From Paracoccus sp. MKU1 (lineage in GTDB: Bacteria; Pseudomonadota; Alphaproteobacteria; Rhodobacterales; Rhodobacteraceae), in contig NZ_LLWQ01000205.1 in the NCBI RefSeq assembly GCF_001447385.1, forward strand, positions 23 to 64,022: 64,000 nt of DNA. The letters are read 5' to 3'. The notes under the pieces are model-generated. The model was not told where the DNA came from. It made no database searches and was given only the letters and a program-made list of their open reading frames with translations. How positions within the stretch are numbered: the stretch's first letter is position 1; each line of letters begins with the position of its first letter. This document shows positions 12,103-58,496 of the stretch, one piece after another. The position numbers and the translations under genes were made by a program.

Positions 12103-12594
12103 TCAGGCCTCCTTGACCGCGATTTTCCTGACCTTGGCCTGCGCCTCGGGAGTCTGGGGCAGCTTGATCGTCAGAACCCCGTTCTTGAAGGATGCCTGCG
12201 CCTTTTCGCCATCCACACCGGGAGGGAGCGGAATTGTCCGGTAGATCGCGCCGTAGCTGCGCTCGGACAGGTAATACCCCTTTTTCTCCTCCTGGCGCTC
12301 GATCTTCTTCTCCCCCTTCACAGTCAACATGTCATCGTTGACCGTCACCTCGATGTCCTTCATCTCCATGCCCGGCAGCTCGATCGATACTTCGATCGCC
12401 TTGTCGGTCTCGACCACGTCGGATTTCGCTTCGCCGCTGCCAAAGGGCCATTCGAAATGACCGACGCGGTTCCAGAAGTTCTCGAACACATGGTTCATTT
12501 CGCGCTGGAGTGTCGCGATCGGGTTGTCTTCGCTGCTCTTGGCATCTGGCGCGCCGTCCTTGCGCGCCCAGGGAATGAGGTCTTTGATCTGCAT
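12103..12594 (-). CDS. Small heat-shock protein Hsp20 (163 aa)
   Basis: The alpha-crystallin domain covers about residues 55-155, with the family motif NGVLTIKLP and a beta-strand pattern including IEVSIELPGMEMKDIEVTVN. The N-terminus MQIKDLIPWARKDGAPD is distinctive and shared with the locus 2 protein at 55820-56311, which has exactly the same length. Hsp20 chaperones hold unfolding proteins for later refolding by disaggregases. It is third in a run of three hsp20 genes (14- and 20-base gaps) and has no I-x-I motif at the extreme C-terminus. Confidence 0.93.
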   Translation of the reverse strand: MQIKDLIPWARKDGAPDAKSSEDNPIATLQREMNHVFENFWNRVGHFEWPFGSGEAKSDVVETDKAIEVSIELPGMEMKDIEVTVNDDMLTVKGEKKIERQEEKKGYYLSERSYGAIYRTIPLPPGVDGEKAQASFKNGVLTIKLPQTPEAQAKVRKIAVKEA

Positions 12595-12614
12595 GATATG
12601 GTCTCCTTCGGTTT

Positions 12615-13013
12615 TCAGGCGCCCTTGACGGCGATCTTTTTCGGCTGCGCTTCAGGGGCTCGGGGGAGCGTCAGGGTGAGGACACCTCCACGCATCTCGG
12701 CTTCGATCCTGTTGGGGTCGAAGTCCTCGGAAAGCGTGAAGGCACGCTCGAAATCGCCCTCGCCATATTCGGCATAGGCAAGTTCGAGGTTTTCCGGCCG
12801 CACCGGGTCAACTTTGCCGCGGATCGTCAACACACGATTTTCGAGCGTGATCTCGACCGCATCGGCGGCGACCCCAGGCATTTCAAGCATCATGGAGACA
12901 CCCTGATCGGTCTCGACGATATCGGTCAACGGGCGGTAGATGCGTCCGCCGCCGGTGGTCTCGGGCGAGTCGGTCGGCGTCTTTTCGGCGGCTTGCGTGA
13001 TGTCGGTGCTCAT
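12615..13013 (-). CDS. Small heat-shock protein Hsp20 (132 aa)
   Basis: An alpha-crystallin domain protein with a short Thr/Glu-rich N-terminus, IYRPLTDIVETDQGVSMMLE and GGVLTLTLPRAPEAQPKKIAVK. The long N-terminal arm of typical class A sHsps is absent. It lies between the other two hsp20 genes on the minus strand. The locus 2 orthologue at 56352-56750 has the same length. Three different sHsps in one operon could form mixed oligomers (inference). Confidence 0.92.
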   Translation of the reverse strand: MSTDITQAAEKTPTDSPETTGGGRIYRPLTDIVETDQGVSMMLEMPGVAADAVEITLENRVLTIRGKVDPVRPENLELAYAEYGEGDFERAFTLSEDFDPNRIEAEMRGGVLTLTLPRAPEAQPKKIAVKGA

Positions 13014-13027
13014 CGTTCCAGCTCCTC

Positions 13028-13453
13028 TCAGGCTGCCTTGATCTCGATTTTCTTCGGCTTTTCTTCCTCGGGCCGGGAGATGACGATCCGCAATACGCCG
13101 TTCGTCATCCTCGCCTCGACCTTGTCATCCGAGGCCGCGAACGGCAGGCGGATAGTGCGGGAAAACCTGCCGAAACTGCGTTCGTTGCGGTGCCAGCGCG
13201 CACCGTCGGGAACCTCGGGCGCCTTGCGTTCGCCCGAAAGCGTCAGGACGTTGTCCTTAACCGAAATCTCAATGTCGCCCGGTTCGATGCCGGGAAGTTC
13301 AGCGGTGACGGCAACGGCCTCGGAGCCTTGCCACACATTCACCGCCGGGAACGCCGCGCGGGACGGGGGCAAGAAGCCGCGGTCGAGATCGCGCATCATG
13401 GAGCGCATCAGCGCGAAGGGATCGCTGCGGCGCAGATATGTCGGATAGAGCAT
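13028..13453 (-). CDS. Small heat-shock protein Hsp20 (141 aa)
   Basis: An alpha-crystallin protein starting MLYPTYLRRSDPFALMRSMM, with VAVTAELPGIEPGDIEISVK, LTLSGERKAPEV and NGVLRIVISRPEEEKPKKIE. First gene of the minus-strand operon, 14 bases ahead of the next; the ATG at 13453 is preceded by GGAGGCC. A close homologue (142 aa) is first in the locus 2 operon at 56766-57194. The promoter and MarR-like operator lie within the 200 bases upstream. Confidence 0.93.
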   Translation of the reverse strand: MLYPTYLRRSDPFALMRSMMRDLDRGFLPPSRAAFPAVNVWQGSEAVAVTAELPGIEPGDIEISVKDNVLTLSGERKAPEVPDGARWHRNERSFGRFSRTIRLPFAASDDKVEARMTNGVLRIVISRPEEEKPKKIEIKAA

Positions 13454-13549: not shown

Positions 13550-13625
13550 AAGATAGGCAGATCCATTTATTATGCAAGCATGTATGATGCTTGCATTGCA
13601 CTTTGGATGGAGTGCGGTCTATCCT
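13550..13625. promoter_or_regulatory. Divergent promoters and MarR-type palindromic operator
   Basis: A perfect 8-bp inverted repeat, TGCAAGCA (13573-13580) and TGCTTGCA (13588-13595) with a 7-base spacer, lies between the hsp20 operon and marR. On the minus strand a -35-like TTGCAT (13572-13577), 16-base spacer and -10-like TATCTT (13550-13555) face hsp20. On the plus strand TTGCAC (13596-13601), 18 bases and TATCCT (13620-13625) face marR. The palindrome overlaps one -35 and abuts the other, so one bound dimer could control both directions. Promoter assignments are by eye. Confidence 0.6.
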
Positions 13626-13655
13626 GTGTCTCATGCCACCGGAGGAAGGATACCT

Positions 13656-14087
13656 ATGATCTCTTCGGACATCGCGCTGATCGGGACGACGATCCACCGG
13701 GTCGCGCAGCTCATCCAGCAGCGGATCGACCAAGACATCCGCGACAGCGGCCTGACCCGCCTGTCCTGGATGGCGGCGGCGCATGTCGAGGATGCGCCCG
13801 GGCTGACCATCGGCGATCTGGCCGACCGACTTGAGGTCGGCCCGGCCACTGCGGGCCAGCTCGTCGATCGCATGGTCCGGGGCGGCTGGGTCGAGCGGTC
13901 GCCCTCGCTCGACGACAGGCGGTCGCAGATCGTCACCGCAACGTCGAAGGCCCGGGCGATGCTGGAGGAACTCGCGCCGCGGCAATCGGCGCTCGAACAT
14001 GAAATCCTGCAGGATCTGTCGGCAGACGAAAGGCGCATCCTGCTGGCGCTGCTCGAGCGGATCAAGGCGCGGCTCGGGCGCCAGTGA
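13656..14087 (+). CDS. MarR-family transcriptional regulator
   Basis: A 143-residue protein with a winged helix at about 45-105 (LTIGDLADRLEVGPATAGQL, VDRMVRGGWVERSPSLDDRR) and flanking dimerisation helices. The DxR-type wing motif (DDRRSQIV) is typical of MarR proteins. The start at 13656 has GGAGGAAGG upstream; an earlier ATG near 13572 would run through the operator. It is the first gene of the ftsH-clpK direction and probably autorepresses and represses the hsp20 operon through the palindrome at 13573-13595. No equivalent gene occurs in locus 2. The signal it senses is unknown. Confidence 0.88.
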   Translation: MISSDIALIGTTIHRVAQLIQQRIDQDIRDSGLTRLSWMAAAHVEDAPGLTIGDLADRLEVGPATAGQLVDRMVRGGWVERSPSLDDRRSQIVTATSKARAMLEELAPRQSALEHEILQDLSADERRILLALLERIKARLGRQ

Positions 14088-14101
14088 AAGGGACAAGCGG
14101 C

Positions 14102-15934
14102 ATGGAAAGGAAGACCGAATATAACATCTGGTACTGGGTGGTGGCTTTCATAGCCGTGCTTTTCATCCAGAACCTGATCGCCGGCTGGCAATCCGTCGCA
14201 CCGATCAGCTACAGCCAGTTCGAGAGCTATCTCGAGGATGGCAGGGTCGCGTCCGTCGCGGTCGGCGCGGACACCATCACCGGCACCTTCACCGACCCCG
14301 TCGACGGCAAGAGCCAGTTCGTCACCACGGTCGTGGATCCCGCGATCCTGCAGCGGATCGACCGCTCCGGCGTCGAGATCACGGGCGTTCCTCAGAACAC
14401 CTTTCTCGGCACGCTGATTTCCTGGGTGGCGCCAGCGCTTGTCTTCTTCGGAATCTGGATGCTGCTGTTCCGTAAGTTCGCCGACAAACAGGGTTTTGGC
14501 GGCTTCATGCAGGTCGGCCGCAGCAAGGCCAAGGTTTACATGGAAAAAGAAACCGGCGTCAGCTTCGCCGACGTGGCCGGTGTGGACGAGGCCAAGGCCG
14601 AGCTCGAGGAGGTCGTAGAGTTCCTCAGGAACCCCGCCGAATACGGAAAGCTGGGCGCACATGTCCCCAAAGGCATATTGCTTGTCGGGCCGCCGGGCAC
14701 CGGCAAGACGCTTCTAGCGCGCGCAGTGGCAGGCGAGGCCGGCGTGACCTTCTTTTCGATCTCGGGCTCCGAGTTCGTCGAGATGTTCGTGGGCGTCGGT
14801 GCCGCGCGGGTGCGCGACCTCTTCGAGCAGGCTCGGAAATCCGCGCCGGCGATCATCTTCATCGACGAACTCGACGCTCTCGGGCGGGCGCGCTCCTCCG
14901 GCCAGATCGCTGGCGGCCACGATGAGCGTGAGCAGACGCTGAACCAGCTTCTGACCGAGCTCGACGGCTTCGACCCTTCGGTGGGCATCGTGCTCCTGGC
15001 CGCCACCAACCGACCCGAGATCCTCGACCCCGCGCTGCTGCGTGCGGGACGCTTCGACCGGCAGGTGCTGGTGGATCGGCCGGATAAGAAGGGACGTGTG
15101 CAGATTCTCGGCGTTCACATGAAAAAGGTGAAGCTCGCCCCGGACGTCGATGCCGAGAAGGTCGCAGCGCTTACTCCCGGCTTTTCCGGGGCGGACCTCG
15201 CCAATCTCGTCAACGAGGCTGCGCTGCTTGCCACGCGCCGCAAGGCCGATGCGGTGACGATGGACGACTTCAACAATGCCGTCGAGCGCATCATCGCAGG
15301 GTTGGAAAAGAAGAACCGCGTTCTGAACCCGCGCGAACGCGAGATCGTGGCGCACCACGAGATGGGGCACGCGCTGGTGGCGATGGCTCTGCCGGGGGTG
15401 GACCCGGTGCACAAGGTCTCGATCATACCGCGCGGAATTGGCGCGCTCGGCTACACGATCCAGCGCCCGACCGAGGACCGCTTCCTGATGACGCGGGAGG
15501 AACTCGAGAACAAGATCGCCGTGCTGCTGGGCGGGCGCGCGGCCGAGAAGATTGTCTACGACCACCTCTCGACCGGGGCGGCGGACGATCTGGTCAAGGC
15601 CACCGATATCGCCCGCGCCATGGTCGCGCGGTACGGGATGGACGAAGACCTCGGGCATGTCAGCTACGACACCGATCGGCCCGGCTTTCTCGGCACCGGC
15701 GACCAGTCGTCGTGGCTGAACCGCCGCTACAGCGAGGCCACTGCCGAGCGGATGGACGCGAAGGTGCGCGACATCGTGGATGGCGTGTTCAAGCGCACCG
15801 TCTCGCTTCTCGAAGCCAACCGGGCGCTGCTCGAGCAATCGGCGCAGGATCTCCTGCAACGGGAGACACTGGACGAGCCCGAACTGGTGGCAATTGGGTC
15901 CAAGGTGAAAAGAACGGAAGCAGTCGCTGCGTGA
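14102..15934 (+). CDS. ftsH: ATP-dependent zinc metalloprotease FtsH (locus 1)
   Basis: A 610-residue FtsH. TM1 is at about 8-28 and TM2 at about 102-124, with a short periplasmic domain between. The AAA module has Walker A GPPGTGKT near residue 197, Walker [12 protein letters not shown], and an SRH with [20 protein letters not shown]. The protease has the zinc motif HHEMGH near residue 418 and a later Asp ligand region. It is a membrane-anchored hexamer that extracts and degrades misfolded membrane and soluble proteins. It begins 14 bases after marR and 63 bases before clpK. The locus 2 protein has exactly the same length and is very similar, but the two are not identical, for example RFADKQGF versus KFAERQGF near TM2. 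Confidence 0.95.
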
Positions 15935-15997: not shown

Positions 15998-18892
<2,895 letters not shown>

Positions 18893-18969: not shown

Positions 18970-20112
18970 ATGAACGTCATTAGATCATTCCGCAATCTCG
19001 ACCGGCACGGCCAACAGCGCGCGCCTGAGGTCATCGAGGAGGAGGTGCGGCAACTTGAACCGCACCTTGCGCGCTTTCGCGAGGATCTGGTCCGGCTCGA
19101 AGTCGTTGCCTCGCAGACGAGGGGCAAGAAGCGCATCAAAGTCAGCCTGCGCCTGCAACTGCCGTCGGGCGTGATCGCGGCGCGGGAAGAGGGATTCGAG
19201 ATCGAGCCTGTCCTGCGCAAGGCCTTTGCCGACCTGCGCCACCAGGTCGATCGGCATGTGGCGCGCCTCAAGCACGAGCCGGAGTACAAGCGTCCCGCCC
19301 GCCGGCGCCGGATCGGCGCCCCGCTGCCGCCCGCGCGGGATGCGGCGGAGGCGGAGCGGCGCCAACTCTTCTTCGACCTGATCGAGGATCATCTCGATAC
19401 GGTCTACGACACCGTCAGGCGCGAGTTGACCTATCTCGAATGCAGCGGATCTGTGCCGGAGGGTTACCTCAGCGTTCGCGATCTTGTCGATGCGACGATC
19501 CTCAAGGGGCTGGCCCGCTTCGAGGATCGGCCCTCGGAGTTTTCCGTCGGCGACTGGCTGAAACGGCTGGCTTTTGAGACCATCGAGGAAGAATCCCGCG
19601 CCGCCCGCCGCGCCGTGCCTGAGGATGCCGCCTCCATCGAGGCGGAACCCGAGGCCCCGGCGGAGGATCCGACCGAGGCGGATCAGGCGATGTTCGAGTT
19701 CTACCAGCCCGACGAAGTGCTGATGCTGGAGGACCTCCTCGCCGACGACGGCGGCACAGACCCCGAGAGCCAAGCGGATCGGCATAAGATCGCCATGGTG
19801 CTGCACCGGGCAATCGCCGATCTTCCGTCGGTCGAACGCCGCGTTCTCTATCGGCTCCACCTCGACAACGCTACGATCGCGGAGACGGCAGACCTTTTCG
19901 GCCTGACCGAGACAGTGGTCGCCGAGATCGCAGAAAATGCGGGCGCGACACTACGCGCGAGGCTTGCCGAAGCCGGGTTGGTCAGAGATCCATCAGGCCG
20001 CGCGCCCATCGAACGGGAAATCGCTCACACGCAGCGTCTGCCTCAGCCGATCGAGGATCGCCGCCGCGTGGCCGCCGCCCTAACCGGCGAGGAGGCCGGC
20101 TCCGACACCTGA
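18970..20112 (+). CDS. HPF/RaiA-like domain fused to sigma-factor-like regions 2 and 4
   Basis: A 380-residue protein. Residues about 1-95 resemble ribosome hibernation factor HPF/RaiA: an alpha/beta pattern with VEVVASQTRGKKRIKVSLRL-like strands and a basic tail (RRRRIGAP). Residues about 130-215 (LSVRDLVDATILKGLARF, GDWLKRLAFETIEEE) resemble sigma region 2. Residues about 275-340 (AIADLPSVERRVLYRLHLDN, TIAETADLFGLTETVVAEIA) resemble a sigma region 4 helix-turn-helix. It is probably a cytoplasmic stress protein acting on ribosomes, transcription or both; which halves are active is unknown. Start ATG at 18970; it lies 77 bases after clpK with no terminator seen. Confidence 0.72.
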   Translation: MNVIRSFRNLDRHGQQRAPEVIEEEVRQLEPHLARFREDLVRLEVVASQTRGKKRIKVSLRLQLPSGVIAAREEGFEIEPVLRKAFADLRHQVDRHVARLKHEPEYKRPARRRRIGAPLPPARDAAEAERRQLFFDLIEDHLDTVYDTVRRELTYLECSGSVPEGYLSVRDLVDATILKGLARFEDRPSEFSVGDWLKRLAFETIEEESRAARRAVPEDAASIEAEPEAPAEDPTEADQAMFEFYQPDEVLMLEDLLADDGGTDPESQADRHKIAMVLHRAIADLPSVERRVLYRLHLDNATIAETADLFGLTETVVAEIAENAGATLRARLAEAGLVRDPSGRAPIEREIAHTQRLPQPIEDRRRVAAALTGEEAGSDT

Positions 20113-20138
20113 CATGGAACTGAATAGGAGATCGACCA

Positions 20139-20786
20139 ATGACCACAGCCTCTGAAAACCCGACCGACAAGATGCAGGACATGCTGTGCAGCCTGTCCCG
20201 GAATTGGTGGGCATTCGTGTTACGCGGCGTGCTCGCATTGATCATCGCAGTGCTAGCCTTCGTCATGCCTGCGGAATCGCTTCTGGCGCTCACGCTGGTC
20301 TTCGGCGCGTTCGCCTTTGCCGACGGCGTGTTCGGCCTCGTCGCCGCGATACGTAACATCCGCAAGGGCGAACGCTGGGGCTGGCTGATGTTCAGCGGCA
20401 TTCTGGGCATCGCCACGGGCGTCGTCGTGGTTGTCTCGCCTTTTGTCGCGACTCTTGTGCTTGCGACATTCCTCTGGGCCAGCATCGCCTTCTGGTCCGT
20501 GTTCTCGGGTGCCCTCGAGATCGCGGCAGCGATCCGCCTGCGCAAGGAAATCGAGGGCGAGATCTGGCTGATCCTGAGCGGCCTCGTCTCGGTCGTTCTC
20601 GGTGTCGTCGTGACCTGGATGCTGCTGACGCGCCCGCTCGAAAGCTTCCTCGCGCTCGGCTGGCTGATCGGCTTCTACGCCGCGATCTTCGGGGTGATGA
20701 TGATCCTCCTCGGGCTGCGGCTGCGCAAGGCGGATCGCCCGAATGACGGCACCATCGCCGGCCAGCCCCGGTCGGCGCAGATGTGA
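20139..20786 (+). CDS. hdeD: HdeD-family membrane protein
   Basis: A 215-residue protein with six hydrophobic segments in three pairs (about 23-45, 50-70, 80-100, 105-125, 138-158, 165-190), matching HdeD (DUF308). HdeD is an acid-stress membrane protein of E. coli and a common member of the heat-resistance locus. AGGAG precedes the ATG at 20139, 26 bases after the HPF-sigma gene. The charged C-terminal tail (LRLRKADRPNDGTIAGQ) is cytoplasmic by prediction. Confidence 0.9.
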   Translation: MTTASENPTDKMQDMLCSLSRNWWAFVLRGVLALIIAVLAFVMPAESLLALTLVFGAFAFADGVFGLVAAIRNIRKGERWGWLMFSGILGIATGVVVVVSPFVATLVLATFLWASIAFWSVFSGALEIAAAIRLRKEIEGEIWLILSGLVSVVLGVVVTWMLLTRPLESFLALGWLIGFYAAIFGVMMILLGLRLRKADRPNDGTIAGQPRSAQM

Positions 20787-20994
20787 TGTGCGCTGTGGCA
20801 GATGACCGGCGCCTTGCCGGCGGCGAGAACGATTTCACCCGATGGGATGAAACGATTTTCGACCGTTGCCTTAGCGCCGGCTTCAATCCGTTCGGCAGCG
20901 GTCCGACGCCGATCTTCCTGCGGCACCCGGGCGCAGAGGCGCGCGCCGATGCAACGCCGTGCATGACCCCTGACACCGAAAATGCGAGGTGCTG
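20787..20994. other. 208-base intergenic stretch in stress locus 1
   Basis: No supported gene. A small open frame overlaps the hdeD end but has no ribosome site or recognisable sequence. The stretch contains GAGGT at 20986-20990, which serves the next gene. An internal promoter could lie here but none is clear. Confidence 0.4.
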
Positions 20995-21615
20995 ATGTCT
21001 AACCGCCTGCCCGACTTGGCACTTGCTGCTGCGGCCGCTTCCCTGGGCATCGGCATCGTTTTCCTTTTTCGCTCGATGTATCTTGCCGAAGACACGCTGC
21101 CTTTCGCGCAGGAGATGACGCTCATCTTCCTCGGCGCTGTCGTGACGATCATTCTGACCGCGGCGCTTCTCAATCGCCAGACCGATCTCGAGCTTCGCAA
21201 GGAAGGAAGGGTCATCATCCTCCAGCAGCAATGCGACATTTACATGGCCTGTATCGAGAAGGTCGCAGAGATCGTGGAAACCGCAAGGCACGATGCGAAG
21301 CTGATCGATGAACTGCGTGTTCTCAGCCACAAGCTGGCTGTGGTCGCGAGTGCAGGGGTCGTGTCCAGCTTCGAGCAGGTACTGGAGAGCTTGCAGTCCG
21401 GTTTTGCTGACGGCACGCTCTCGGACGGGGACGGAGAGGGCGTGATGAATGCCGTCGCCGATCTCACGATAGCGATGCGGTCGGACGTCCTGCACGCTGC
21501 TGCCTTTCCTTCGCAGAACACCGAACGCGCCGTTCGCCTGAATTCGAGGCGAATGGAAAAACTCGACGATCTCGAACGTCACCTTCTCGCATCAACCGAC
21601 ACCCGGGAGATCTAA
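20995..21615 (+). CDS. Membrane protein with two TM helices and a helical cytoplasmic domain
   Basis: A 206-residue protein of unrecognised family. TM segments are at about 7-25 (LPDLALAAAAASLGIGIVFL) and 38-58 (MTLIFLGAVVTIILTAALL). They are followed by a long helical cytoplasmic part starting LNRQTDLELRKEGRVIILQQ that looks like a coiled coil. The ATG at 20995 with GAGGT upstream is preferred over a GTG six bases earlier. It lies one base before the NDUFS4-like gene, so the pair is probably co-translated. No function is assigned; it could be a membrane-tethered stress sensor or scaffold. Confidence 0.7.
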   Translation: MSNRLPDLALAAAAASLGIGIVFLFRSMYLAEDTLPFAQEMTLIFLGAVVTIILTAALLNRQTDLELRKEGRVIILQQQCDIYMACIEKVAEIVETARHDAKLIDELRVLSHKLAVVASAGVVSSFEQVLESLQSGFADGTLSDGDGEGVMNAVADLTIAMRSDVLHAAAFPSQNTERAVRLNSRRMEKLDDLERHLLASTDTREI

Positions 21616-21616
21616 C

Positions 21617-22177
21617 ATGCGCGGCCATAACCGCCCACCGTTTCCGCCGAGAATCCCCGGAACCGACCTGCGGTCGTGGGACGTGCCGACCGCGATCATC
21701 TATCGCCCGGCGCGTTCCGCAATGACATCGGCGCCCCGGCCCAGCTACTGGGTTCTCGAGTTCGAGCCGTCCCGGCCGCCGCAGGTCGAGCCGCTGATGG
21801 GATGGACGGCAAGCGGCGACGCCTATCGCCCGATCCGGCTGAAGTTCCCCGACCGGGACAGCGCCGTGGACTTCGCCGAGCGGCAGGACTGGCATTATGT
21901 CGTGCGCGAGGACGCTGGGGGAGCCCGGATGGCGAACCCTTGGGCGGGTGAGACGCGCCACCGGCTGCACAGGGGCGTCGATGCCCCGGGAGCCTTCCGG
22001 GTCGCGTTCCGCCCCGATCGCCGCCTCTCAAGAGGCGTTCAGCATGAGAGCACGGCCGACCCGTCTACCAGCGACAGGGAGAGTTTCGATCCGGTCCTCG
22101 AAGCCTCGCTCGAATCCTTCCCGGCCTCCGATCCGCCGGCCTGGACGGGCGTGACGATAGCCGGGAAAGAACAATGA
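21617..22177 (+). CDS. NDUFS4-like (ETC complex I subunit region) protein with SFPASDPPAW tail
   Basis: A 186-residue protein. Residues about 20-95 match the complex I accessory subunit conserved region: TAIIYRPARSAMTSAPRPSY, WVLEFEPSRPPQVEPLMGW and YRPIRLKFPDRDSAVDFAER. The C-terminus carries a separate short motif, LEASLESFPASDPPAW, found widely as a small stand-alone domain. In mitochondria and alphaproteobacteria NDUFS4 stabilises complex I. Here it lies in a stress operon, and a homologue occupies the same place relative to clpK and kefB in locus 2 (63307-63891). Its function outside complex I is unknown. Confidence 0.8.
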   Translation: MRGHNRPPFPPRIPGTDLRSWDVPTAIIYRPARSAMTSAPRPSYWVLEFEPSRPPQVEPLMGWTASGDAYRPIRLKFPDRDSAVDFAERQDWHYVVREDAGGARMANPWAGETRHRLHRGVDAPGAFRVAFRPDRRLSRGVQHESTADPSTSDRESFDPVLEASLESFPASDPPAWTGVTIAGKEQ

Positions 22178-22210: not shown

Positions 22211-22963
22211 TTGTTTCCCTATCTTGACAGCGTCGCGCGCCGCTACTCCCCCGTCATCGTATGGGCGGTCATCGGCATGAACGTCGTCGCGTTTCTCTAT
22301 CAGACCAGCCTGCCGCCGCGCGTGCTGGACTGGTTCCTGTTCGAGTTCGCGCTGGTGCCCTCGCGCTTCTTCGGACAGCTGAGCCTCGTCGCCCCGTCCG
22401 ACTGGACCCCATTCCTGACCAATATCTTCCTGCACGGGGGCTGGCTGCACCTCATCTTGAACATGTGGACGCTCTGGATCTTCGGCCCCGCCGTCGAAGA
22501 TCGGCTCGGACCGGGTAGATTCACACTGTTCTATCTGTTCTGTGGTGTAGCGGCCGGACTGGCTCACGCGCTGGCGAACCCCCACTCAGTCGTTCCCGCG
22601 CTTGGCGCATCGGGGGCCATCGCGGGCGTGATCGGTTGCTACGCACGCATGTTTCCGGCGGCTCGGCTGGTGGTGATCGTGCCGATTCTGTTCATTCCGC
22701 TGTTCTTCGAAGTGCGCGCGTTCATTTTCGCAATGATCTGGTTCTTCATGCAGGTCATTCCCGGCTTTCTGTCGCTCGGCGGCGATCAGGCCACGGGCGG
22801 GATCGCCTGGTGGGCGCATATCGGCGGGTTTGTCGCCGGTTGGATTGTCACGCCACTCCTGCGAAGGCGGGCAGCCACCTATCGCCATTATTATCGCGAC
22901 GAGGGCATCTATGGCTTTCTGCCGGATGGCCGACGGGAAGGGGGACAAGGTCCATGGATATAA
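22211..22963 (+). CDS. Rhomboid-family intramembrane serine protease
   Basis: A 250-residue polytopic protein with a TTG start at 22211. Rhomboid signatures are HGGWLHLILNMWTLWIFG (TM2), the catalytic Ser in LGASGAIAGVIG near residue 135 and the His in WWAHIGGFVAG near residue 203. The Asn in LNMWTLW is also conserved. Rhomboids cleave within TM helices and would contribute to membrane protein quality control. It overlaps the next gene by ten bases. The start is uncertain; the frame has no clear ATG nearer the first TM. Confidence 0.9.
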   Translation: MFPYLDSVARRYSPVIVWAVIGMNVVAFLYQTSLPPRVLDWFLFEFALVPSRFFGQLSLVAPSDWTPFLTNIFLHGGWLHLILNMWTLWIFGPAVEDRLGPGRFTLFYLFCGVAAGLAHALANPHSVVPALGASGAIAGVIGCYARMFPAARLVVIVPILFIPLFFEVRAFIFAMIWFFMQVIPGFLSLGGDQATGGIAWWAHIGGFVAGWIVTPLLRRRAATYRHYYRDEGIYGFLPDGRREGGQGPWI

Positions 22964-23796
22964 TGCAGCTTTTCTGGCTGTTCTTCATCATTTCGGCGCT
23001 GCAGCCGGTTCTGCAGCGCAGATATCTTGAGGCGATGCGCGTACGCAAGATCGCCAGTATCGAGAAGAAGCGTGCCAGTCGCGTCATCCTGCTGATCCAT
23101 CGGCAGGAGACGATGAACCTGCTGGGATTCCCCTTGATGCGCTACATCGACGTCAATGATTCGGAGGAAGTCCTGCGCGCGATCCAGATGACCGACGACG
23201 AAGTGCCGCTCGACATCGTGCTGCATACACCGGGCGGCCTTGTGCTGGCAGCAACCCAGATCGCTCGGGCCATTCAGGGCCACAAGGGCAAGGTCACCGT
23301 GTTCGTACCGCATTACGCGATGTCGGGCGGCACGTTGATCGCGCTTGCCGCCGACGAGATCGTGATGTGCGAGCATTCCGTGCTGGGACCCGTCGATCCG
23401 CAACTTGGCCAGTTGCCGGCCGCCTCGCTCCTCAAAGTCGTCGAGGAGAAACCCATCGCCGAGATCGACGACCAGACTCTCATCATGGCCGACGTCGGTC
23501 GCAAGGCCATTGCGCAGATCGAGGCGTTCGCGAAGCGTCTTTTGTCCGACAAGATGGACGAGGACCGTGCGGTGGCGCTGGCGGCAAAGCTGGCGACAGG
23601 CACCTGGACCCACGATTATCCCATCTCTGCCGAAGAGGCCCGGGACATGGGCCTGCCCGTCAGAACGGACATGCCCAAGGAAATACTGGAGCTGATGACG
23701 CTCTATCCGCAGCCGGTTCGGCGCCAGGGCGGTGGCGTGGAATACCTGCCCGAGCCGCGGCAACGAGAGGCGCGCCGCGCCATGTCCACGCGCTGA
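22954..23796 (+). CDS. SppA/ClpP-fold (SDH-type) membrane serine protease
   Basis: A 280-residue protein with an N-terminal hydrophobic anchor (LFWLFFIISALQPVLQRRYL). The crotonase/ClpP-like fold shows DIVLHTPGGLVLAATQIARA and the nucleophile Ser in HYAMSGGTLIALAADEIVM near residue 124. This matches the SDH/serine dehydrogenase proteinase and NfeD/SppA-like families that process membrane proteins or signal peptides. The ATG at 22954 has a purine-rich site (AAGGGGGACAAGG) upstream and overlaps the rhomboid stop, so the two proteases are coupled. Confidence 0.85.
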   Translation: MDIMQLFWLFFIISALQPVLQRRYLEAMRVRKIASIEKKRASRVILLIHRQETMNLLGFPLMRYIDVNDSEEVLRAIQMTDDEVPLDIVLHTPGGLVLAATQIARAIQGHKGKVTVFVPHYAMSGGTLIALAADEIVMCEHSVLGPVDPQLGQLPAASLLKVVEEKPIAEIDDQTLIMADVGRKAIAQIEAFAKRLLSDKMDEDRAVALAAKLATGTWTHDYPISAEEARDMGLPVRTDMPKEILELMTLYPQPVRRQGGGVEYLPEPRQREARRAMSTR

Positions 23797-23848: not shown

Positions 23849-24271
23849 ATGCCCACGGTCGCTTGCCCGCACTGCAATTCCACCAACAGAGTGCCGCAAG
23901 AGCGCCTGACCGATAATCCCAATTGCGGACGCTGCGGCGCGCCCCTCTTTCAAGGCAGGCCCGTCACGCTTACAGCGAGTAATTTTGACCGTCATGCGAA
24001 TGCCGAACTGCCATTGCTGGTCGATTTCTGGGCTGAGTGGTGCGGGCCATGCAAGATGATGGCGCCCCAATTCGAGGCGGCGGCGCAGTCGCTCGAGCCA
24101 AATTTCCGCCTTGGTAAGCTCGATACGGAAGCCGAACAGAAAATCGCCAGCCGCCACGGGATCCGCAGCATCCCCACTATGATCCTGTTCAGGAGCGGGA
24201 AGGAAATTGCGAGGACGAGCGGTGCGATGCCTACCGCGCAGATAGCGCTGTGGGCGCGCTCGCACGTCTAG
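23849..24271 (+). CDS. trxC: Thioredoxin 2 (TrxC-type, zinc-ribbon N-terminus)
   Basis: A 140-residue thioredoxin. The N-terminal zinc-binding pairs C6/C9 (CPHC) and C26/C29 (CGRC) are followed by the thioredoxin fold with the active site WCGPCK at residues 64-69. The cis-Pro region SIPTMILFRSGKE is also present. Thioredoxin 2 is heat- and oxidation-stress-associated and reduces disulphides in the cytoplasm. AAGGAT precedes the ATG at 23849. In enterobacterial heat-resistance loci a thioredoxin gene stands beside kefB, as here. Confidence 0.93.
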   Translation: MPTVACPHCNSTNRVPQERLTDNPNCGRCGAPLFQGRPVTLTASNFDRHANAELPLLVDFWAEWCGPCKMMAPQFEAAAQSLEPNFRLGKLDTEAEQKIASRHGIRSIPTMILFRSGKEIARTSGAMPTAQIALWARSHV

Positions 24272-24319
24272 AGTTTACAGGTATTGGCCTTCCCTGCGCC
24301 ATGCCATCAGGAGAAGAAC

Positions 24320-24757
24320 ATGCATGGCGTGACCGGATTTGTCGAGAGTGCGGCCTTGTTGGTCTTTGCCGCGTTCGTGCTCGTGACGATATGTTCACGG
24401 ATCGGCGTGCCCAGCATTGTCGGTTACATTCTTTCCGGCATAGTCATCGGACCTGCCGGCCTCGGCCTGCTTGCCGAGAACGCTGCCCTGAGCAGCATTG
24501 GCGAGATCGGAGTTGTACTCCTGCTGTTCGCGCTTGGCCTGGAATTCTCGTTCGAGAAGCTCGTAAGGCTCAGGAAGCATGTTCGGTCTTGGAGCCGTGC
24601 AGGTTGCAGTCACGACGATAACGGTGTCTTTGATAACAATTCTGATCTTCGATCTCGCGCCCGTCCCCGCAATCCTCATCGGCGGGGCCGTTGCCATGTC
24701 ATCCACGGCCATGTGCCTCAAGGTGCTCGCAAGCGCGAACGCTCTGGGATCCAGAAG
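24320..24757 (+). pseudogene. kefB: kefB-type CPA2 antiporter, broken by frameshift and IS21
   Basis: The N-terminus MHGVTGFVESAALLVFAAFV, with RIGVPSIVGYILSGIVIGPA and IGVVLLLFALGLEFSFEKL, is KefB/CPA2-type. Near 24570 the reading frame must shift by one to continue as FGLGAVQVAVTTITVSLITI, then ILIGGAVAMSSTAMCLKVLA. The gene then ends at about 24750-24758, where an IS21 istB fragment begins. Only about 145 codons of a roughly 550-600-residue protein remain, so it is dead. The intact function in this replicon may be supplied by the copy starting at 63891. Confidence 0.88.
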
Positions 24758-25169
24758 CAGATGGCTGCCTACAAGCTGCTGATCATCGACGAGCTGGGCT
24801 TCGTGCCGCTCTCAAAGACCGGTGCGGAGTTGCTGTTCGAGCTGATCTCGCAACGCTATGAGCGCGGTGCCACCCTGATCACCAGAAATCTACCCTTCGA
24901 CGAATGGACGGAAACGCTGGGATCCGAGCGACTGACCGGTGCTCTGCTCAACCGCATCACCCACCACGTCAACATTCTCGAGATGAACGGCGACAGCTAC
25001 CGTCTCGCTCAAAGCCGCGCCCGAAAGGCCGGCAGAAACCCTCCTCGAAAATCGCCGCCCGCGCCTGCGACCCCCGCTCGGGCCACGTCCTCCCGGCGGT
25101 CGCAGGCGCGGGCAAGCTGTGGCCGACTCTTGCTCCGCCCAGTGGCCGGCCTTTACTCCGCCGTTGACA
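24758..25169 (+). mobile_element. IS21-family remnant: istB C-terminal end and terminal repeats
   Basis: From about 24758 a frame reads QMAAYKLLIIDELGFVPLSK, then TGAELLFELISQRYERGATL, GALLNRITHHVNILEMNGD and SYRLAQS. This is the C-terminal half of the IstB AAA+ helper ATPase; the Walker A part is missing. The right end shows two IS21-style repeats, TGGCCGACTCTTGCTCCGCC (25120) and TGGCCGGCCTTTACTCCGCC (25143), ending in GTTGACA at 25169. The fragment fuses directly to kefB. Its terminal repeats differ from those at 32501-32554, so this is a different IS21 element. Confidence 0.85.
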
Positions 25170-25334
25170 AATACCTATCAATCGGAAAATTCTCCGTCCC
25201 ATCTCGGGATGCTCCATCAATTTTCTCATCTTGCCGGGACCCCCGGTCTTGAGCGGGAACATAGAGATCGAATTGGCCGCGTGGGCGCTGCGGGTTCGGG
25301 CTCCCGTCCATGCGAGTAGATACATGGGTGTGCG

Positions 25335-25826
25335 ATGAAGCTGATGGTGGCAAAGCGGCTCGTTCTTTTCGCTCTGATCTGGCTCGTGCTGACCCGCGCC
25401 GACGTTTCGGGCTTCGCCTTCGGTATCGTGGTTGCGGCAGGCTCGACATGGGTTAGCCTCATCCTGCTACCGCCCGGCTCGCATCGCGTGAGTATCGCGG
25501 GGATGATCCGGCTCGCTCCCGGATTTTTGCGCAGCTCGCTTCTTGGCGGGATCGACGTCGCCCGCCGCGCGCTTCACCCGCGTATGCCACTCGACGCAGG
25601 CTGGATCGCCTATCGCACGAAGCTGCCTAGGGGCCTGCCTAGGGTCTCGTTCGGCAGCGAGACGAGTCTTCTACCAGGCTCGCTGGTGGCTGGCGGACGC
25701 GGCGACGTGCTCTACGTCCACTGCCTCGACAGGGGCCAGGACGTGGAAGGGAGCCTGCGCGACGAAGAGGAAAGGATCGCCTCCACGCTTACCGAGGGGG
25801 ACAGACGAGAGGAGCGGGGGCCATGA
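25335..25826 (+). CDS. mrpE: Mrp-type antiporter subunit E (MnhE/MrpE)
   Basis: A 163-residue protein of the MnhE family: N-terminal membrane segments (VLFALIWLVLTRADVSGFAF and IVVAAGSTWVSLILLPPG), then the conserved GGIDVARRALHPRM and LPGSLVAGGRGDVLYVHCLD stretches. It is the first gene of an eight-gene operon whose reading frames overlap by one to four bases. MrpE is needed for assembly or full activity in Na+/H+ antiporters. The ATG at 25335 follows a region without a gene (25170-25334). Confidence 0.9.
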   Translation: MKLMVAKRLVLFALIWLVLTRADVSGFAFGIVVAAGSTWVSLILLPPGSHRVSIAGMIRLAPGFLRSSLLGGIDVARRALHPRMPLDAGWIAYRTKLPRGLPRVSFGSETSLLPGSLVAGGRGDVLYVHCLDRGQDVEGSLRDEEERIASTLTEGDRREERGP

Positions 25827-26107
25827 CCAGTTTTCTCTACCTTGCCGGCCTCATTCTTCTGCTGACCGTGGCGGCGAGCCTTATACGCATCCATATCGGC
25901 CCGACGCGCGCCGAGCGCATGATGAGCGCGCAATTGATCGGCACGAGCGGCGTCGGCACGGTGCTGCTTTTAGCCGGCGCCGAAGGAAACGGCGCGATGA
26001 TCGACGTGGCGCTGGTGCTGGCACTGCTGGCTGCCTTCGCGGCAGTCGCCTTCGTCAAGGCATCGAGCCCGGACGGGGCCGGTGATCCGGAGGAGGACGA
26101 CAGATGA
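25823..26107 (+). CDS. mrpF: Mrp-type antiporter subunit F (MnhF/MrpF)
   Basis: A 94-residue membrane protein with three TM helices. Family residues are visible in IHIGPTRAERMMSAQLIGTS and LALLAAFAAVAFVKAS. The ATG overlaps the mrpE stop (ATGA at 25823-25826), which indicates translational coupling. Length is typical of MrpF. Confidence 0.9.
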   Translation: MTSFLYLAGLILLLTVAASLIRIHIGPTRAERMMSAQLIGTSGVGTVLLLAGAEGNGAMIDVALVLALLAAFAAVAFVKASSPDGAGDPEEDDR

Positions 26108-26415
26108 ACCTCGCAGAGGCCTTCACGATTCTGTTCGTCGTCGCCGGCATCTTCTTCTTCGTGGCCGGCACTGTCGGCCTGCTGCGTTTTCCCGACACGC
26201 ACACGCGGCTTCACGCGCTGACCAAGGCCGACAATCTCGGCCTCGGGCTGATCGCCTTCGGTCTCGCCTTCCGGATGCCCGATGTCTGGGGCGTCGCCAA
26301 GCTCGGCCTCGTCTGGCTGCTCGCCGTCTTAGCGGCCGCGACAGTCGCGCAACTGGTTGCCCGCGCCGCGCTCGACCGCCTGCCAGACCTTGACGAGAAG
26401 GGAGGCGCCCGGTGA
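26104..26415 (+). CDS. mrpG: Mrp-type antiporter subunit G (MnhG/MrpG)
   Basis: A 103-residue membrane protein with three TM helices and the MnhG signature VGLLRFPDTHTRLHALTKAD. It overlaps mrpF by four bases and precedes the MbhD-MnhB fusion gene. Length fits MrpG (about 100-120). Confidence 0.92.
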   Translation: MNLAEAFTILFVVAGIFFFVAGTVGLLRFPDTHTRLHALTKADNLGLGLIAFGLAFRMPDVWGVAKLGLVWLLAVLAAATVAQLVARAALDRLPDLDEKGGAR

Positions 26416-27353
26416 CTGCTGCCTTTGTCTTCGACGCCATGCTGTGCCTCCTGTTAGTAGGAACTGCCGTCTCGGCGGTGGCCGGGCGCGATCTCTTCGC
26501 CTCGATTGCCTTCTTCGTCACTTACGGCATTCTGATCGGGCTCGCCTGGCTGCGGCTCGGGGCCGTCGACGTGGCGCTGGCGGAGGCCGCGATCGGAGCC
26601 GGCCTTACCGGCGTGCTGCTGATCGGAGCGTGGTCGATGCTCCAGCGGCGCTGCGGCGACGGCGGCAATGATCCCGCCATGCCGGTGTTGCCGAAGCTCG
26701 CCGCCGCCGCTGTGTCCGTAACGGTGACGGGAATGCTCGCGCTCGCCGTGCTCGCGCTCCCGGTAGGGGCGCCGGGCCTCGTTCCTCTCGTCACTGAGAA
26801 CCTCTCTGAATCCGGCGTCGGAAATCCCGTTACGGCGGTGCTCCTCAACTTCCGCGCGTATGACACACTGATGGAAAGCATCGTGCTGCTGATCGCGCTG
26901 GTCGCGGTCTGGGCGCTCACGCCGAAGGAGCTTTGGGGCGGCGTGCCAGGCCTGCGCCAGCATGCGCGCCCGGACGGCGTGCTCGCGACCTTCGGCCGCT
27001 TGCTGCCGCCACTCGGCCTCGTGGTCGCCGTCTATGTAGTCTGGGCGGGCAGCGAAATGCCCGGCGGCGCGTTCCAGGCCGGCACCATCCTCGCCGCCGT
27101 CTGGCTGCTGGTCGTCATGGCCGGCATTGCCGAAGAGCCGCGCATGTCGAGTCGGCTCCTGCGCCTCGCCCTCGTCGTCGGGCCGGCCGTGTTCCTCGGC
27201 GTCGGCCTCGTCGGCGCGGCTTTCGGCAGCTTCCTGGGCCTGCCCGTCGATTTCGCCAAGGCGCTGATCCTGGCAATCGAGTTCGCGCTGACCTTTTCCA
27301 TTGCCGTCACGCTCGCCCTTCTCGTCGCCGGCACGCCGAGGGAGGGAACGTGA
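26412..27353 (+). CDS. mrpB: Fusion of MbhD/DUF4040-like domain with MnhB-type subunit
   Basis: A 313-residue membrane protein. Residues about 1-80 resemble the DUF4040/MbhD domain (AGRDLFASIAFFVTYGILIG and VDVALAEAAIGAGLTGVLLI). Residues about 100-130 may be an MbhE-like link. Residues about 150-305 resemble MnhB (YDTLMESIVLLIALVAVWAL, WAGSEMPGGAFQAGTILAAV). In Bacillus MrpA the DUF4040 part belongs to the large subunit, so its fusion to MrpB here is a different subunit division. It overlaps mrpG by four bases. The next gene starts one base after its stop. Confidence 0.85.
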   Translation: MTAAFVFDAMLCLLLVGTAVSAVAGRDLFASIAFFVTYGILIGLAWLRLGAVDVALAEAAIGAGLTGVLLIGAWSMLQRRCGDGGNDPAMPVLPKLAAAAVSVTVTGMLALAVLALPVGAPGLVPLVTENLSESGVGNPVTAVLLNFRAYDTLMESIVLLIALVAVWALTPKELWGGVPGLRQHARPDGVLATFGRLLPPLGLVVAVYVVWAGSEMPGGAFQAGTILAAVWLLVVMAGIAEEPRMSSRLLRLALVVGPAVFLGVGLVGAAFGSFLGLPVDFAKALILAIEFALTFSIAVTLALLVAGTPREGT

Positions 27354-27354
27354 G

Positions 27355-27675
27355 ATGATGCTGTCGACCGCTACCCTCTACGCCCTTTGCGGCGCCGCGA
27401 TGATTGGCATCGGCGTCTACGGCTTCATCGTGCGTGCCCATCTCCTGCGGCGGGTGCTGGCCTTCAACGTCATCGGCAGCGGCGTCTTCCTCTTTCTCGG
27501 CGCGCTCGGCTACCGCGCTCCGCAAGCCGGGGCTGATCCCGTGCCCCACGCTCTCATCATCACGGGGATCGTTGTGGCTCTGTCGCTGACCGCGCTCGCG
27601 GTAGCGCTGGTGCTGAAGCACGCGGAGGAGGCCGGCCGCGCTGTGCTGCCGGAAGAGGACCGGGAGGAGACGTGA
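27355..27675 (+). CDS. mrpC: Mrp-type antiporter subunit C (MnhC, NuoK-like)
   Basis: A 106-residue NuoK/MnhC homologue with three TM helices and residues ALCGAAMIGIGVYGFIVRAH and DPVPHALIITGIVVALSLTA, the latter holding the conserved PHALIITGIVV. Two ATGs at 27355 and 27358 are both possible; GGAGGGAACG upstream fits either. It overlaps the first MrpD-type gene by four bases. Confidence 0.92.
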   Translation: MMLSTATLYALCGAAMIGIGVYGFIVRAHLLRRVLAFNVIGSGVFLFLGALGYRAPQAGADPVPHALIITGIVVALSLTALAVALVLKHAEEAGRAVLPEEDREET

Positions 27676-29153
27676 TGGGTGCTCTCCTTACGCTGCCGCT
27701 TCTGGAACTCACCGTCGGCCTGCCGCTGGCCGCGACCCTGCTTGCCATTGTGTCGGGCAGGTTCTCGTCCGGTCTCGTCCTCGGGATTGGTCCAGCAATG
27801 CTTGCGCTCGCGGTGCTGCTTTGCCTTGCGGTTGGCAGTCACGGACCGCTGGAGGTGGCTGTCGGCGGCTGGGCCGTGCCGCTCGGCATCGCGCTCGGCG
27901 CGGACGGGCTTTCGGCCGTCTTCGTGATGACTGGCGCGATCATCATGCCCGCCGTAGCGCTCTTTGCGCGCCGCGCCTTCGGCTCCGATCCAGCCGAGAC
28001 GACGCAGAGCTTCACCTTCTGGCCGCTGTTTTTCGCCATGTGGGCAGCGCTCAACGCGATCTTCGTCGGGCGCGACCTGTTCAACTTCTATGTCGCTTTG
28101 GAGCTTTTGACCCTCACCGCAGTGGCTATGGTCGCCTATGGCGGCACCGCGGCCGCACTGCGCTACATGATCTTCGCCCTGATGGGCTCGCTCGCCTATA
28201 TGACTGGTGTCGCTCTGCTCTACGCCTCGGCCGCCACGCTTGACATCGGCCTGCTTAGCGAAGCTATCGAGCCCGACCGCGCCGTCGTCCTCGCCGGCGG
28301 GCTGATGACGGCCGGGCTTCTGGCGAAGACTGCGCTGTTCCCGCTTCATGCCTGGCTGCCGCCCGCGCACGGCAATGCGCCAGCGCCGGCGAGCGCGCTG
28401 CTCTCGGCGCTGGTGGTGAAGGCGTCGTTCTTCATCATCGTGCGCATCTGGTTCCACGTGATGCCGGACGCGCAAAGCCCGTGGCTCGTGCAGACGCTGG
28501 GCCTCCTAGGCGCGTGTGCGGTCATCTATGGCTCGCTGCTCGCCATCCGCCAGGGCCGGCTCAAGCTCGTGATCGCCTATTCGACCGTGGCTCAGATCGG
28601 CTATCTGTTCTTCATCTTTCCGCTCGCGGACGGCTCGGCCTTCGCGCTGCCCTGGGCGGCCGGCGCGTGGACCGGCGGCATCTTCCATGCGCTCTCGCAC
28701 GCTTTCGCCAAGGCCGCCCTGTTCCTCGCGGCCGGCCTGATCATCGAGGCGCTCGGGCATGACCGGATCGCCGACATGAAGGGCATCGCCCGCGCCCTGC
28801 CGATGACGATGGCCGCCTTCGGTCTCGCGGCGCTCTCGATCATGGGCCTGCCGCCGTCCGGCGGCTTCATGGCCAAGTATCTGATGCTGACCTCCGCGCT
28901 CGCCGGCGGCCAGATCTTCTACGCGCTGGTGATGATCGCCGGCGGACTCCTGGCGGTGATCTACCTGTTCCGGCCGCTCAATGCGGCCTTTGCAGGCAGT
29001 CATGTGCCCGAAATCGCGCCGGTCCCCAAGGCGCGGCAAACGATCCCGCTGGCGCTGGCGCTGATCGCGACAATTATCGGCCTGGCATCGAGTATTCCCT
29101 ATCAGTTCCTTCAGATCGGCCTGCCCGAAGTGTTGGAGGGAGGGACGGAATGA
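27672..29153 (+). CDS. mrpD: Mrp/NuoM-type proton-translocating subunit D, copy 1
   Basis: A 493-residue polytopic protein (about 13-14 TM) of the Proton_antipo_M family. It contains the conserved Glu in FNFYVALELLTLTAVAM and the Lys in GLLAKTALFPLHAWLPPAHG, with the broken-helix Pro/Lys ASALLSALVVKASFFI. These residues carry protons in complex I-like subunits. First of three consecutive paralogues, each overlapping the next by four bases. Confidence 0.92.
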   Translation: MMGALLTLPLLELTVGLPLAATLLAIVSGRFSSGLVLGIGPAMLALAVLLCLAVGSHGPLEVAVGGWAVPLGIALGADGLSAVFVMTGAIIMPAVALFARRAFGSDPAETTQSFTFWPLFFAMWAALNAIFVGRDLFNFYVALELLTLTAVAMVAYGGTAAALRYMIFALMGSLAYMTGVALLYASAATLDIGLLSEAIEPDRAVVLAGGLMTAGLLAKTALFPLHAWLPPAHGNAPAPASALLSALVVKASFFIIVRIWFHVMPDAQSPWLVQTLGLLGACAVIYGSLLAIRQGRLKLVIAYSTVAQIGYLFFIFPLADGSAFALPWAAGAWTGGIFHALSHAFAKAALFLAAGLIIEALGHDRIADMKGIARALPMTMAAFGLAALSIMGLPPSGGFMAKYLMLTSALAGGQIFYALVMIAGGLLAVIYLFRPLNAAFAGSHVPEIAPVPKARQTIPLALALIATIIGLASSIPYQFLQIGLPEVLEGGTE

Positions 29154-55819: not shown

Positions 55820-56311
55820 TCAGGCGTTCTTCACCTCGATGCGCTTGACCTTGGCCTGCGCCTCCGGGGTCTGCGGCAGCTTGATCGTCAGCACGCCGTT
55901 CTTGAAGCTGGCATCGGCCTTCTCACCGTCGACTCCCGGCGGTAGCGGAATCGTGCGATAGATCGCGCCATAGCTGCGTTCGGAGAGATAATAGCCCTTC
56001 TTCTCCTCCTGCCGCTCGATCTTCTTCTCGCCCTTGATGGTCAGCATGTCGTCGGTCACGGTGACCTCGATGTCCTTCATTTCCATCCCGGGCAGTTCGA
56101 TCGATACCTCCACGTGATCTTCGGTCTCGACCACGTCGGATTTCGCCTCGCCGCCTCCCCAGGGCCAGTCGAAATCGCCGACGCGGTTCCAGAAGCCTTC
56201 GAACACACGGTTCATGTCGCGTTGAAGGGTGGCGATGGGGTTCTGGTCATCACTTTTCGGGTCGGGCGCATGATCCTTCCGCGCCCAGGGGATCAGGTCC
56301 TTGATCTGCAT
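55820..56311 (-). CDS. Small heat-shock protein Hsp20 (163 aa, locus 2)
   Basis: Orthologue of 12103-12594 with equal length and the same N-terminus (MQIKDLIPWARKDHAPDPKS). Alpha-crystallin core shows VEVSIELPGMEMKDIEVTVT and the motif NGVLTIKLPQTPEAQAK. It differs at scattered residues only (for example KVKRIEVKNA tail instead of KVRKIAVKEA). Third of three hsp20 genes on the minus strand; yfdX does not follow it, a hairpin does. Confidence 0.93.
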   Translation of the reverse strand: MQIKDLIPWARKDHAPDPKSDDQNPIATLQRDMNRVFEGFWNRVGDFDWPWGGGEAKSDVVETEDHVEVSIELPGMEMKDIEVTVTDDMLTIKGEKKIERQEEKKGYYLSERSYGAIYRTIPLPPGVDGEKADASFKNGVLTIKLPQTPEAQAKVKRIEVKNA

Positions 56312-56351
56312 GTGAGTTCTCCTTTCTTCTTCTGGGTGCGACATGTCGGGT

Positions 56352-56750
56352 TTACGAAGCCGTTACCGTGATCTTTTTGGGTTGGGCTTCCGCTGCGCGC
56401 GGCAACGTTAGGGTCAGCACACCGTTCGAGACCTGCGCGCCGATCTTGTCGGGGTCGAAGTCGTCGGACATGGTGAAGGCTCGCTCGAAATCGCCCTCGC
56501 CATATTCGGCATAGGCCAATTGCAGCTTCTCGGGCTGCGTGGCATGGACCTTACCTCGGATCGTCAACACGCGCTTTTCGAGCGTGATATCCACGTCTTC
56601 GGCGGCGACGCCCGGCATCTCGAGCATCAGCGTCACCCCGTCAGTCGTTTCGACGATGTCGGTCAGCGGCCTGTAGATACGACTGCCGGTGGTGGTTTCC
56701 GGTGTCTCGGCCGGGGTCTTATCGGCAGTATGTGTCACATCGTTGGTCAT
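56352..56750 (-). CDS. Small heat-shock protein Hsp20 (132 aa, locus 2)
   Basis: Orthologue of 12615-13013, same length. Sequence features: SRIYRPLTDIVETTDGVTLM, GVAAEDVDITLEKRVLTIRG, YAEYGEGDFERAF and NGVLTLTLPRAAEAQPKKIT. Middle gene of the operon, 40 bases from the next. Confidence 0.92.
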   Translation of the reverse strand: MTNDVTHTADKTPAETPETTTGSRIYRPLTDIVETTDGVTLMLEMPGVAAEDVDITLEKRVLTIRGKVHATQPEKLQLAYAEYGEGDFERAFTMSDDFDPDKIGAQVSNGVLTLTLPRAAEAQPKKITVTAS

Positions 56751-56765
56751 GGATCGGTCCTCCTC

Positions 56766-57438: not shown

Positions 57439-57459
57439 ACCCGGGCGCAAAAAATGTTC

Positions 57460-58395: not shown

Positions 58396-58496
58396 GATCG
58401 CAATAGATTTCACTCGCGGCTAACGGGAAGTGGCACGCCACGGGATGTAAGAATTTTGGGCATCATTGCCAGCTTCGATCTTCATGTCGGATCCCT

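Follow-up and report, generated by a model that had tools for sequence, protein, structure and literature searches.

An HPF-sigma fusion gene in a Paracoccus heat-tolerance island encodes a sigma-like fold that seems to have lost its DNA-reading surface

Islands of the tLST type let E. coli, Klebsiella and other bacteria survive heat and chlorine. In E. coli MG1655 lacZ::LHR, seven of 13 gene deletions lowered heat or chlorine resistance; in the accessible part of that report orf11 is not among the seven, and its deletion left measured lipid oxidation unchanged (PMC8407380). The position of orf11 outside these genes counts against a vital regulatory role; it may act in recovery, or in other hosts only. 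The accessible part of a second study says that the island of Methylobacillus flagellatus carries a 'sigma 24 like' factor (PMC8290217). Elsewhere in E. coli, ribosomes and RNA polymerase are parked in step by separate proteins, RMF and Rsd, according to the available text of two papers (PMC6904343, PMC6134199). Other systems relevant to this locus are the HPF/RaiA (YfiA) hibernation factors, the ECF and FliA-WhiG sigma factors, and PhyR of the alphaproteobacterial PhyR/NepR system.

The gene described here lies in a 64,000-nucleotide stretch of Paracoccus sp. MKU1 (NZ_LLWQ01000205.1), hereafter the window. The initial annotation had read it as a two-domain frame, HPF-like in front and sigma-like behind, set in a disaggregase operon and present at one locus only. 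This outline held: the open reading frame is intact over its 380 codons, and directly 3' of a gene for a ClpK/ClpG-type disaggregase. The entire genome gave a single match to the protein, and only one place in the window fits the linker motif pattern. A purine-rich AGGAAGG lies upstream of the ATG at 18970. An alternative in-frame GTG start is found earlier, at 18889; the alignments of relatives begin at residue 1 of the ATG form, whose M1 is invariant in the 60 alignment rows. Features of the gene and its neighbourhood are collected in Table 1.

Table 1. Coordinates in the window of the fusion gene, the parts of its protein and the neighbouring island genes.
Feature	Coordinates	Strand	Remark or basis
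HPF-sigma fusion gene	18970..20112	+	380 aa
HPF/RaiA domain, residues 1-106	18970..19287	+	predicted beta-alpha-beta-beta-beta-alpha
Basic linker, residues 107-124 (KRPARRRR...)	19288..19341	+	charge count, alpha alignment
Sigma region 2-like helices, residues 125-214	19342..19611	+	profile match, model, alignment
Linker motif, residues 240-258, consensus ~FEFYQPDExLxLED	19687..19743	+	alignment
Sigma region 4-like helices, residues 265-334	19762..19971	+	Pfam, model, fold comparison
Recognition-helix stretch ETVVAEIAENAGATLR, residues 314-329, net charge -2	19909..19956	+	alignment
Variable C-terminal tail, residues 335-380	19972..20109	+	alignment
Three Hsp20 genes	12103..13453	-	named by place in annotated plasmid L069
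MarR-type regulator	13572..14087	+	Pfam scan
FtsH	14084..15934	+	profile matches
ClpK/ClpG-type disaggregase	15998..18892	+	NF033606 1615 bits, below cut-off 1900
HdeD-type membrane protein	20139..20786	+	DUF308 above cut-off; NCBIfam HdeD model far below cut-off
208-aa protein	20989..21615	+	without Pfam match
NDUS4-like domain protein	21617..22177	+	Pfam scan
Rhomboid protease	22211..22963	+	Pfam scan
SDH-type ClpP-like serine protease	22963..23796	+	profile matches
Thioredoxin	23849..24271	+	named by place in annotated plasmid L069

A scan of species genomes returned 66 loci, five of them partial, with 60-99% identity in the best segment; from the record titles we take them to be alphaproteobacterial. 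Within the genus, 12 of 61 genomes carry the gene, Paracoccus sp. MKU1 included. Across the class, at least 59 of 385 genomes gave some match, which is full length in at least three (again with Paracoccus sp. MKU1), and most of the remaining matches span region 4 alone, as ordinary sigma factors would; these incidences in large groups are lower bounds, with four or five first-look candidates scored per genome. Given 12 of 61 genomes in the genus and the few full-length matches in the class, the distribution is patchy. Among 72,556 plasmid records 87 match, 81 of them over at least 80% of the query, and Acinetobacter (31) and Klebsiella (24) are represented. Judged by this patchy spread and the plasmid copies, the island is probably mobile. 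A phage origin found no support, with no match in 50,697 phage records. Another genome of the genus holds a divergent form adjoining genes for thioredoxin, the SDH protease and FtsH; alpha-only profiles recognised its sigma half (E 8e-23) and not its HPF half (E 1.4). On Burkholderia-group plasmids the homolog precedes groES, groEL and dnaK and adjoins Hsp20 genes, and no ClpK is annotated in the stretches examined of the two islands (L070, L085). Sites resembling sigma32 promoters, CTTGAAA...CCTATC, were seen by eye at the beta Hsp20 genes.

The HPF reading of the N-terminal half is borne out by profile and by fold. PF02482 matches the window protein just above its cut-off (E 6.2e-5, 24.1 bits against 23.7), and the half adopts the HPF fold in the predicted model, where it superposes on V. 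cholerae HPF (4hei) with Z 14.2 and rmsd 1.5 over 92 residues. TIGR00741 reached 16 bits against a cut-off of 40.9. Among five further members PF02482 passed one (25.6 bits), scored three at 14.1-22.2 bits and gave nothing at E<=1 for the gamma member. When an eight-member family profile was compared with solved structures, its N-terminal half matched HPF/YfiA, the better ones at E 0.003-0.02; the same profile also matched an unrelated chain, 8vd6, at 7e-4. HPF/RaiA/YfiA proteins make up 19 of the 22 matches that a profile of 14 HPF halves gives at E<=1, T. thermophilus HPF among them at E 9.5e-5. The alpha-only HPF-half profile recognised E. coli RaiA weakly (E 0.023), while E. coli HPF and the genome's own copy scored no better than shuffled sequences, and the half is therefore a distant HPF member. 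The window protein thus shares a fold and a profile match with HPF/RaiA, but differs from it in carrying a sigma-like half and in having only 16-21% identity to E. coli RaiA, E. coli HPF and the stand-alone HPF that the genome encodes separately. No HPF dimerisation domain is among its Pfam matches. Together with the linker, the HPF half has a net charge of +10 over 116 residues; the first 95 residues contribute +4, equal to the genome's own HPF, and the basic linker is at +5 to +7 in all 60 alpha rows.

The C-terminal half had been read as sigma regions 2 and 4, and a TIGR02937 (sigma70-ECF) match that spans both confirms it (E 1.3e-13, 50.9 bits against a cut-off of 42.9, residues 136-331). 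Of the five further members, one passes (54.4 bits), three score 33.1-41.3 bits and the gamma member shows no match at E<=0.1. Sigma70_r4_2 stayed under its cut-off (22.0 against 25.7 bits), and no Pfam region 2 model matched the window protein at E<=1. The C-terminal half of the eight-member profile matches solved sigma factors, namely WhiG, FliA and ECF structures, the best at E 9e-10. An AlphaFold2 model built from the 60-row alignment has a mean pLDDT of 68, below 50 in the linker, and its pTM of 0.33 makes the mutual placement of the domains unreliable. Modelled region 4 superposes on SigL (3hug) with Z 12.4 and rmsd 1.3 over 80 residues. Regions 2 and 4 taken together gave Z 11.5 over 167 residues of 6dv9 with an rmsd of 24.5, so that they fit singly and not jointly. 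Because Z values below about 13 are possibly unspecific for helical bundles, the case for the sigma half also draws on the sequence matches. Regions 2 and 4 follow each other in the same order as in ECF and FliA-WhiG sigma factors; unlike those, the window protein has a glutamine-to-aspartate change in region 2.2, an HPF domain in front and no net positive recognition helix.

The initial annotation had also proposed promoter recognition, and this part is unsupported. None of the 66 members tested has a recognition helix of net positive charge: over the 16-residue stretch the charge runs from -4 to 0 (54 negative, 12 zero), and of 28 distinct helices 21 are negative and seven zero. Among 11 canonical sigmas ten are positive and one is zero; the set consists of E. 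coli K-12 RpoE, FliA, FecI and RpoD (aligned to the family profile, though unmatched by it at E<=10) plus seven own-genome sigmas that the profile matched, excludes RpoS and RpoH, has two rows sharing one helix, and uses net charge as a proxy for DNA binding. In region 2, aspartate occupies position 174 in 59 of the 60 alpha rows and in all six beta and gamma rows, where the four canonical sigmas with alignment displayed have the region 2.2 glutamine, which we take to be a core-binding residue of sigma factors. Comparison of the region 2 windows (including 2.3/2.4) covers family rows, the canonical rows having been dropped for gaps.

The charge of the HPF-sigma helix resembles that of PhyR, whose sigma-like domain has an acidic recognition helix, with the same proviso that charge is a proxy. 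In genomes of the same family, the helix charge is -2 to -5 in ten of ten PhyR rows and +2 to +5 in seven of seven ECF sigmas; for this control 30 loci were entered and 18 aligned, a 7-residue fragment (L152) was excluded from the means, and some PhyR_sigma-like loci were tallied as ECF, probably through a better-scoring neighbouring ECF gene. A receiver-like motif is present in seven of the ten PhyR rows. Direct inspection of the genome's own PhyR also showed an acidic helix. The best Pfam match of one beta homolog is PhyR_sigma-like (E 1.1e-5, 25.6 bits, below the 27-bit cut-off). PhyR, however, has a receiver domain where HPF-sigma has its HPF domain, and no receiver is among the three Pfam matches of the window protein at E<=1. 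In addition, PhyR/NepR is an alphaproteobacterial system, whereas the fusion is found in beta and gamma too. As far as net charge can tell, the sigma-like domain of the family seems to have lost its DNA-reading surface.

These results bear on the possibility that the protein is a working sigma factor, held on ribosomes through its HPF domain and freed under stress to transcribe its own regulon. Such a factor would be expected to match the sigma70-ECF profile over regions 2 and 4 above the curated cut-off, as this one does. Region 4 keeps its hydrophobic positions and helix-turn-helix frame, the linker motif can be aligned to the stretch that joins regions 2 and 4 in working sigmas, and automatic annotation labels several alpha members 'sigma-70 family'. 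The recognition helix, net positive in 0 of 66 members, and the lost region 2.2 glutamine speak against it, as does the standing of orf11 outside the genes needed for the E. coli tLST phenotypes in the accessible part of the deletion study (PMC8407380).

Region 4 alleles appear to have been exchanged, as a specificity-determining part of a working sigma might be. Against one other locus (L021), the window shows 94-99% identity over 19000-19799, 73-77% over 19800-20199, then 88% at 20200 and 96% at 20400 (200-base windows). In 11 other loci the HPF half retains 86-93% amino-acid identity to the window and region 4 29-34%. The sharp edges fit recombination, by which region 4 and the tail would have been swapped between otherwise near-identical islands. 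In three island intergenic regions away from the gene, no promoter was found to vary along with the region 4 allele (Mantel r 0.09, 0.07 and -0.04, with 28, 122 and 276 of 500 permutations scoring at least as high), and so promoter recognition lacks this support as well; the Hsp20/MarR region (r 0.09, 28 of 500) is near the nominal threshold. The FtsH coding sequence tracks the allele at least as closely as these three regions (r 0.13, reached by 14 of 500), a further point against a working sigma, which we regard as clearly unlikely. The spacer between ClpK and HPF-sigma does co-vary with the allele (r 0.64), to a degree similar to that of the neighbouring HPF coding sequence (r 0.60), as linkage predicts. 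Alignment A2 holds 59 of 66 loci; L057 and L062 are out, their match length not being a multiple of three, and the partial loci L060, L061, L064, L065 and L067 are omitted.

Purifying selection acts on the fusion protein. In nine pairs dN/dS is below 1 wherever dS exceeds zero (dS is zero in three domain cells), and positive selection on region 4 was accordingly not seen. Most comparisons show tighter constraint on HPF, region 2 and linker than on region 4 and tail. A simpler idea, that HPF is always the most constrained part, was rejected, as HPF, region 2 and linker are alike in dN/dS.

Four positions of the EFYQPDE linker motif (residues 243-249) do not vary: all 60 alpha rows carry E243, Q246, P247 and D248, and so do all 14 rows drawn from alpha, beta and gamma. 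Related motifs occur in proteins without HPF. L153 1535-2251 encodes a sigma-like protein with EWYQPDE in a frame too short for HPF, and L158 a second one, matched from position 127 on, with an altered motif, EWFQPED. Both are possible parents of the sigma half. The existence of sigma-like proteins without HPF elsewhere makes the HPF tether look like an added part; the sigma-like part may thus be the older module, to which HPF was joined later. The gene of the L153 protein adjoins one for a small membrane protein, and a gene nearby is presumably glutamine-synthetase-like.

The opposite emphasis would make the protein a hibernation factor first, whose retired sigma half serves for oligomerisation or docking and replaces the C-terminal dimerisation domain of long HPF, with no link to transcription. 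This could explain why the diverged alpha rows (L038-L066 without L053 and L059) are still 62-93% identical to the window in the HPF half and 29-53% in region 4, and why region 4 is without the charge expected for DNA binding. However, a specific role for the sigma half seems indicated, since it contains the four linker residues that stay unchanged from alpha through gamma and since a similar motif occurs in a protein that lacks HPF; region 4 also still shows dN/dS below 1 in the comparisons made. We consider this explanation unlikely, though not remote.

Our preferred reading, held tentatively and at somewhat less than an even chance, is that HPF-sigma is a ribosome-tethered, non-DNA-binding sigma-like adaptor of a mobile heat-tolerance island. 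It builds on the computed two-domain make-up, the spread, the helix without net positive charge and the purifying selection; beyond these, we infer the loss of DNA binding, the ribosome binding, a partner and a switch. From its fold and charge, the HPF domain with the basic linker would dock in the mRNA/tRNA channel of 30S/70S ribosomes that are idle or under stress. The sigma-like domain would retain the region 2, linker and region 4 fold with DNA reading lost, and could act as a protein-binding sigma mimic, as PhyR does, engaging an anti-sigma factor or core RNA polymerase. Stress would then set whether the partner is held on, or released from, the ribosome pool, and translation arrest would thereby be coupled to transcription while ClpK, FtsH and Hsp20 act. 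No anti-sigma family is among the Pfam matches for the nine island proteins scanned. A broader proposition is that mobile ribosome-anchored sigma mimics with exchangeable region 4 modules, tLST orf11 included, physically couple hibernation to transcription control. We hold this to be doubtful; should such coupling exist, a single protein would bring together two processes for which E. coli uses separate parking proteins.

A variant of the adaptor would be a dual hibernation factor: ribosomes would be blocked by the HPF half, the sigma half would sit on core RNA polymerase and not initiate, and the two machines would be parked at once. A sigma fold retained with its DNA-reading charge lost is consistent with this. 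Against it, the region 2.2 glutamine, presumed to bind core, is replaced. The parallel parking by Rsd and RMF in E. coli offers a precedent, in the available text of the two papers (PMC6904343, PMC6134199). On balance such a factor strikes us as quite improbable.

A homolog in gammaproteobacteria matches residues 1-340 of the window protein (25% identity, E 1e-13) and sits between hdeD-GI and trx-GI. In the accessible part of the tLST study this place is that of orf11 (PMC8290217). The tLST comparison included the Klebsiella plasmid pKPN-262. Alpha-only profiles recognised both halves of two gamma proteins (HPF E 5e-8 and 1e-7; sigma 4e-26 and 2e-24), where the best of 3,400 shuffles reached 0.14 and 0.02, respectively. 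The family therefore appears, by sequence comparison, to include orf11 of tLST/LHR in E. coli and Klebsiella, and the M. flagellatus factor may be a further member. There are differences: searched by itself, the gamma protein matches no Pfam HPF model at E<=1 and region 4 only weakly (E 0.027), and gene order in the tLST island differs from that in the Paracoccus island. Of 5426 complete E. coli genomes, 152 contain a match to a near-identical gamma gene, and in 144 the match extends over 80% or more of that gene; among the best 15 of these matches, 14 are annotated hypothetical and one 'RNA polymerase sigma factor'. No description of an HPF-sigma fusion was found in the titles and abstract openings of the best literature matches, mostly from non-subscription journals. 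A tLST gene printed as without close relative of known function thus has a testable identity, a hibernation domain joined to a sigma-like fold.

Around the gene, the tLST set of ClpK/ClpG, Hsp20, FtsH, Trx, HdeD and KefB is present, with ClpK under its cut-off and KefB seemingly broken. Read in translation, the KefB-like gene (24284-25252) breaks off into an IS21 IstB-like remnant, which suggests that this copy of the island has a disrupted antiporter. In the 66 alpha stretches, many of them cut by contig ends, ClpK was found near HPF-sigma in 61, FtsH in 55, HdeD in 50 and the NDUS4-like gene in 63. HdeD was considered as an obligate partner and set aside; present in those 50 alpha stretches and in gamma, it is unannotated beside the beta loci and absent in one alpha type. 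A second, shorter stress block at 55820-63891 holds Hsp20, FtsH, ClpK-type and NDUS4-like genes (labels from reading of the frames), with the NDUS4-like gene straight after the ClpK-type gene and no HPF-sigma gene. Genes at 25335-29153 are, we assume, a multi-subunit Na+/H+ antiporter of the Mrp type. By eye, the end of the island's NDUS4-like protein (ESFPASDPPAWTG, 22112-22177) resembles an ETFPASDPIA frame behind the beta HPF-sigma gene (L070 11144-11260), perhaps a short motif shared by stress operons.
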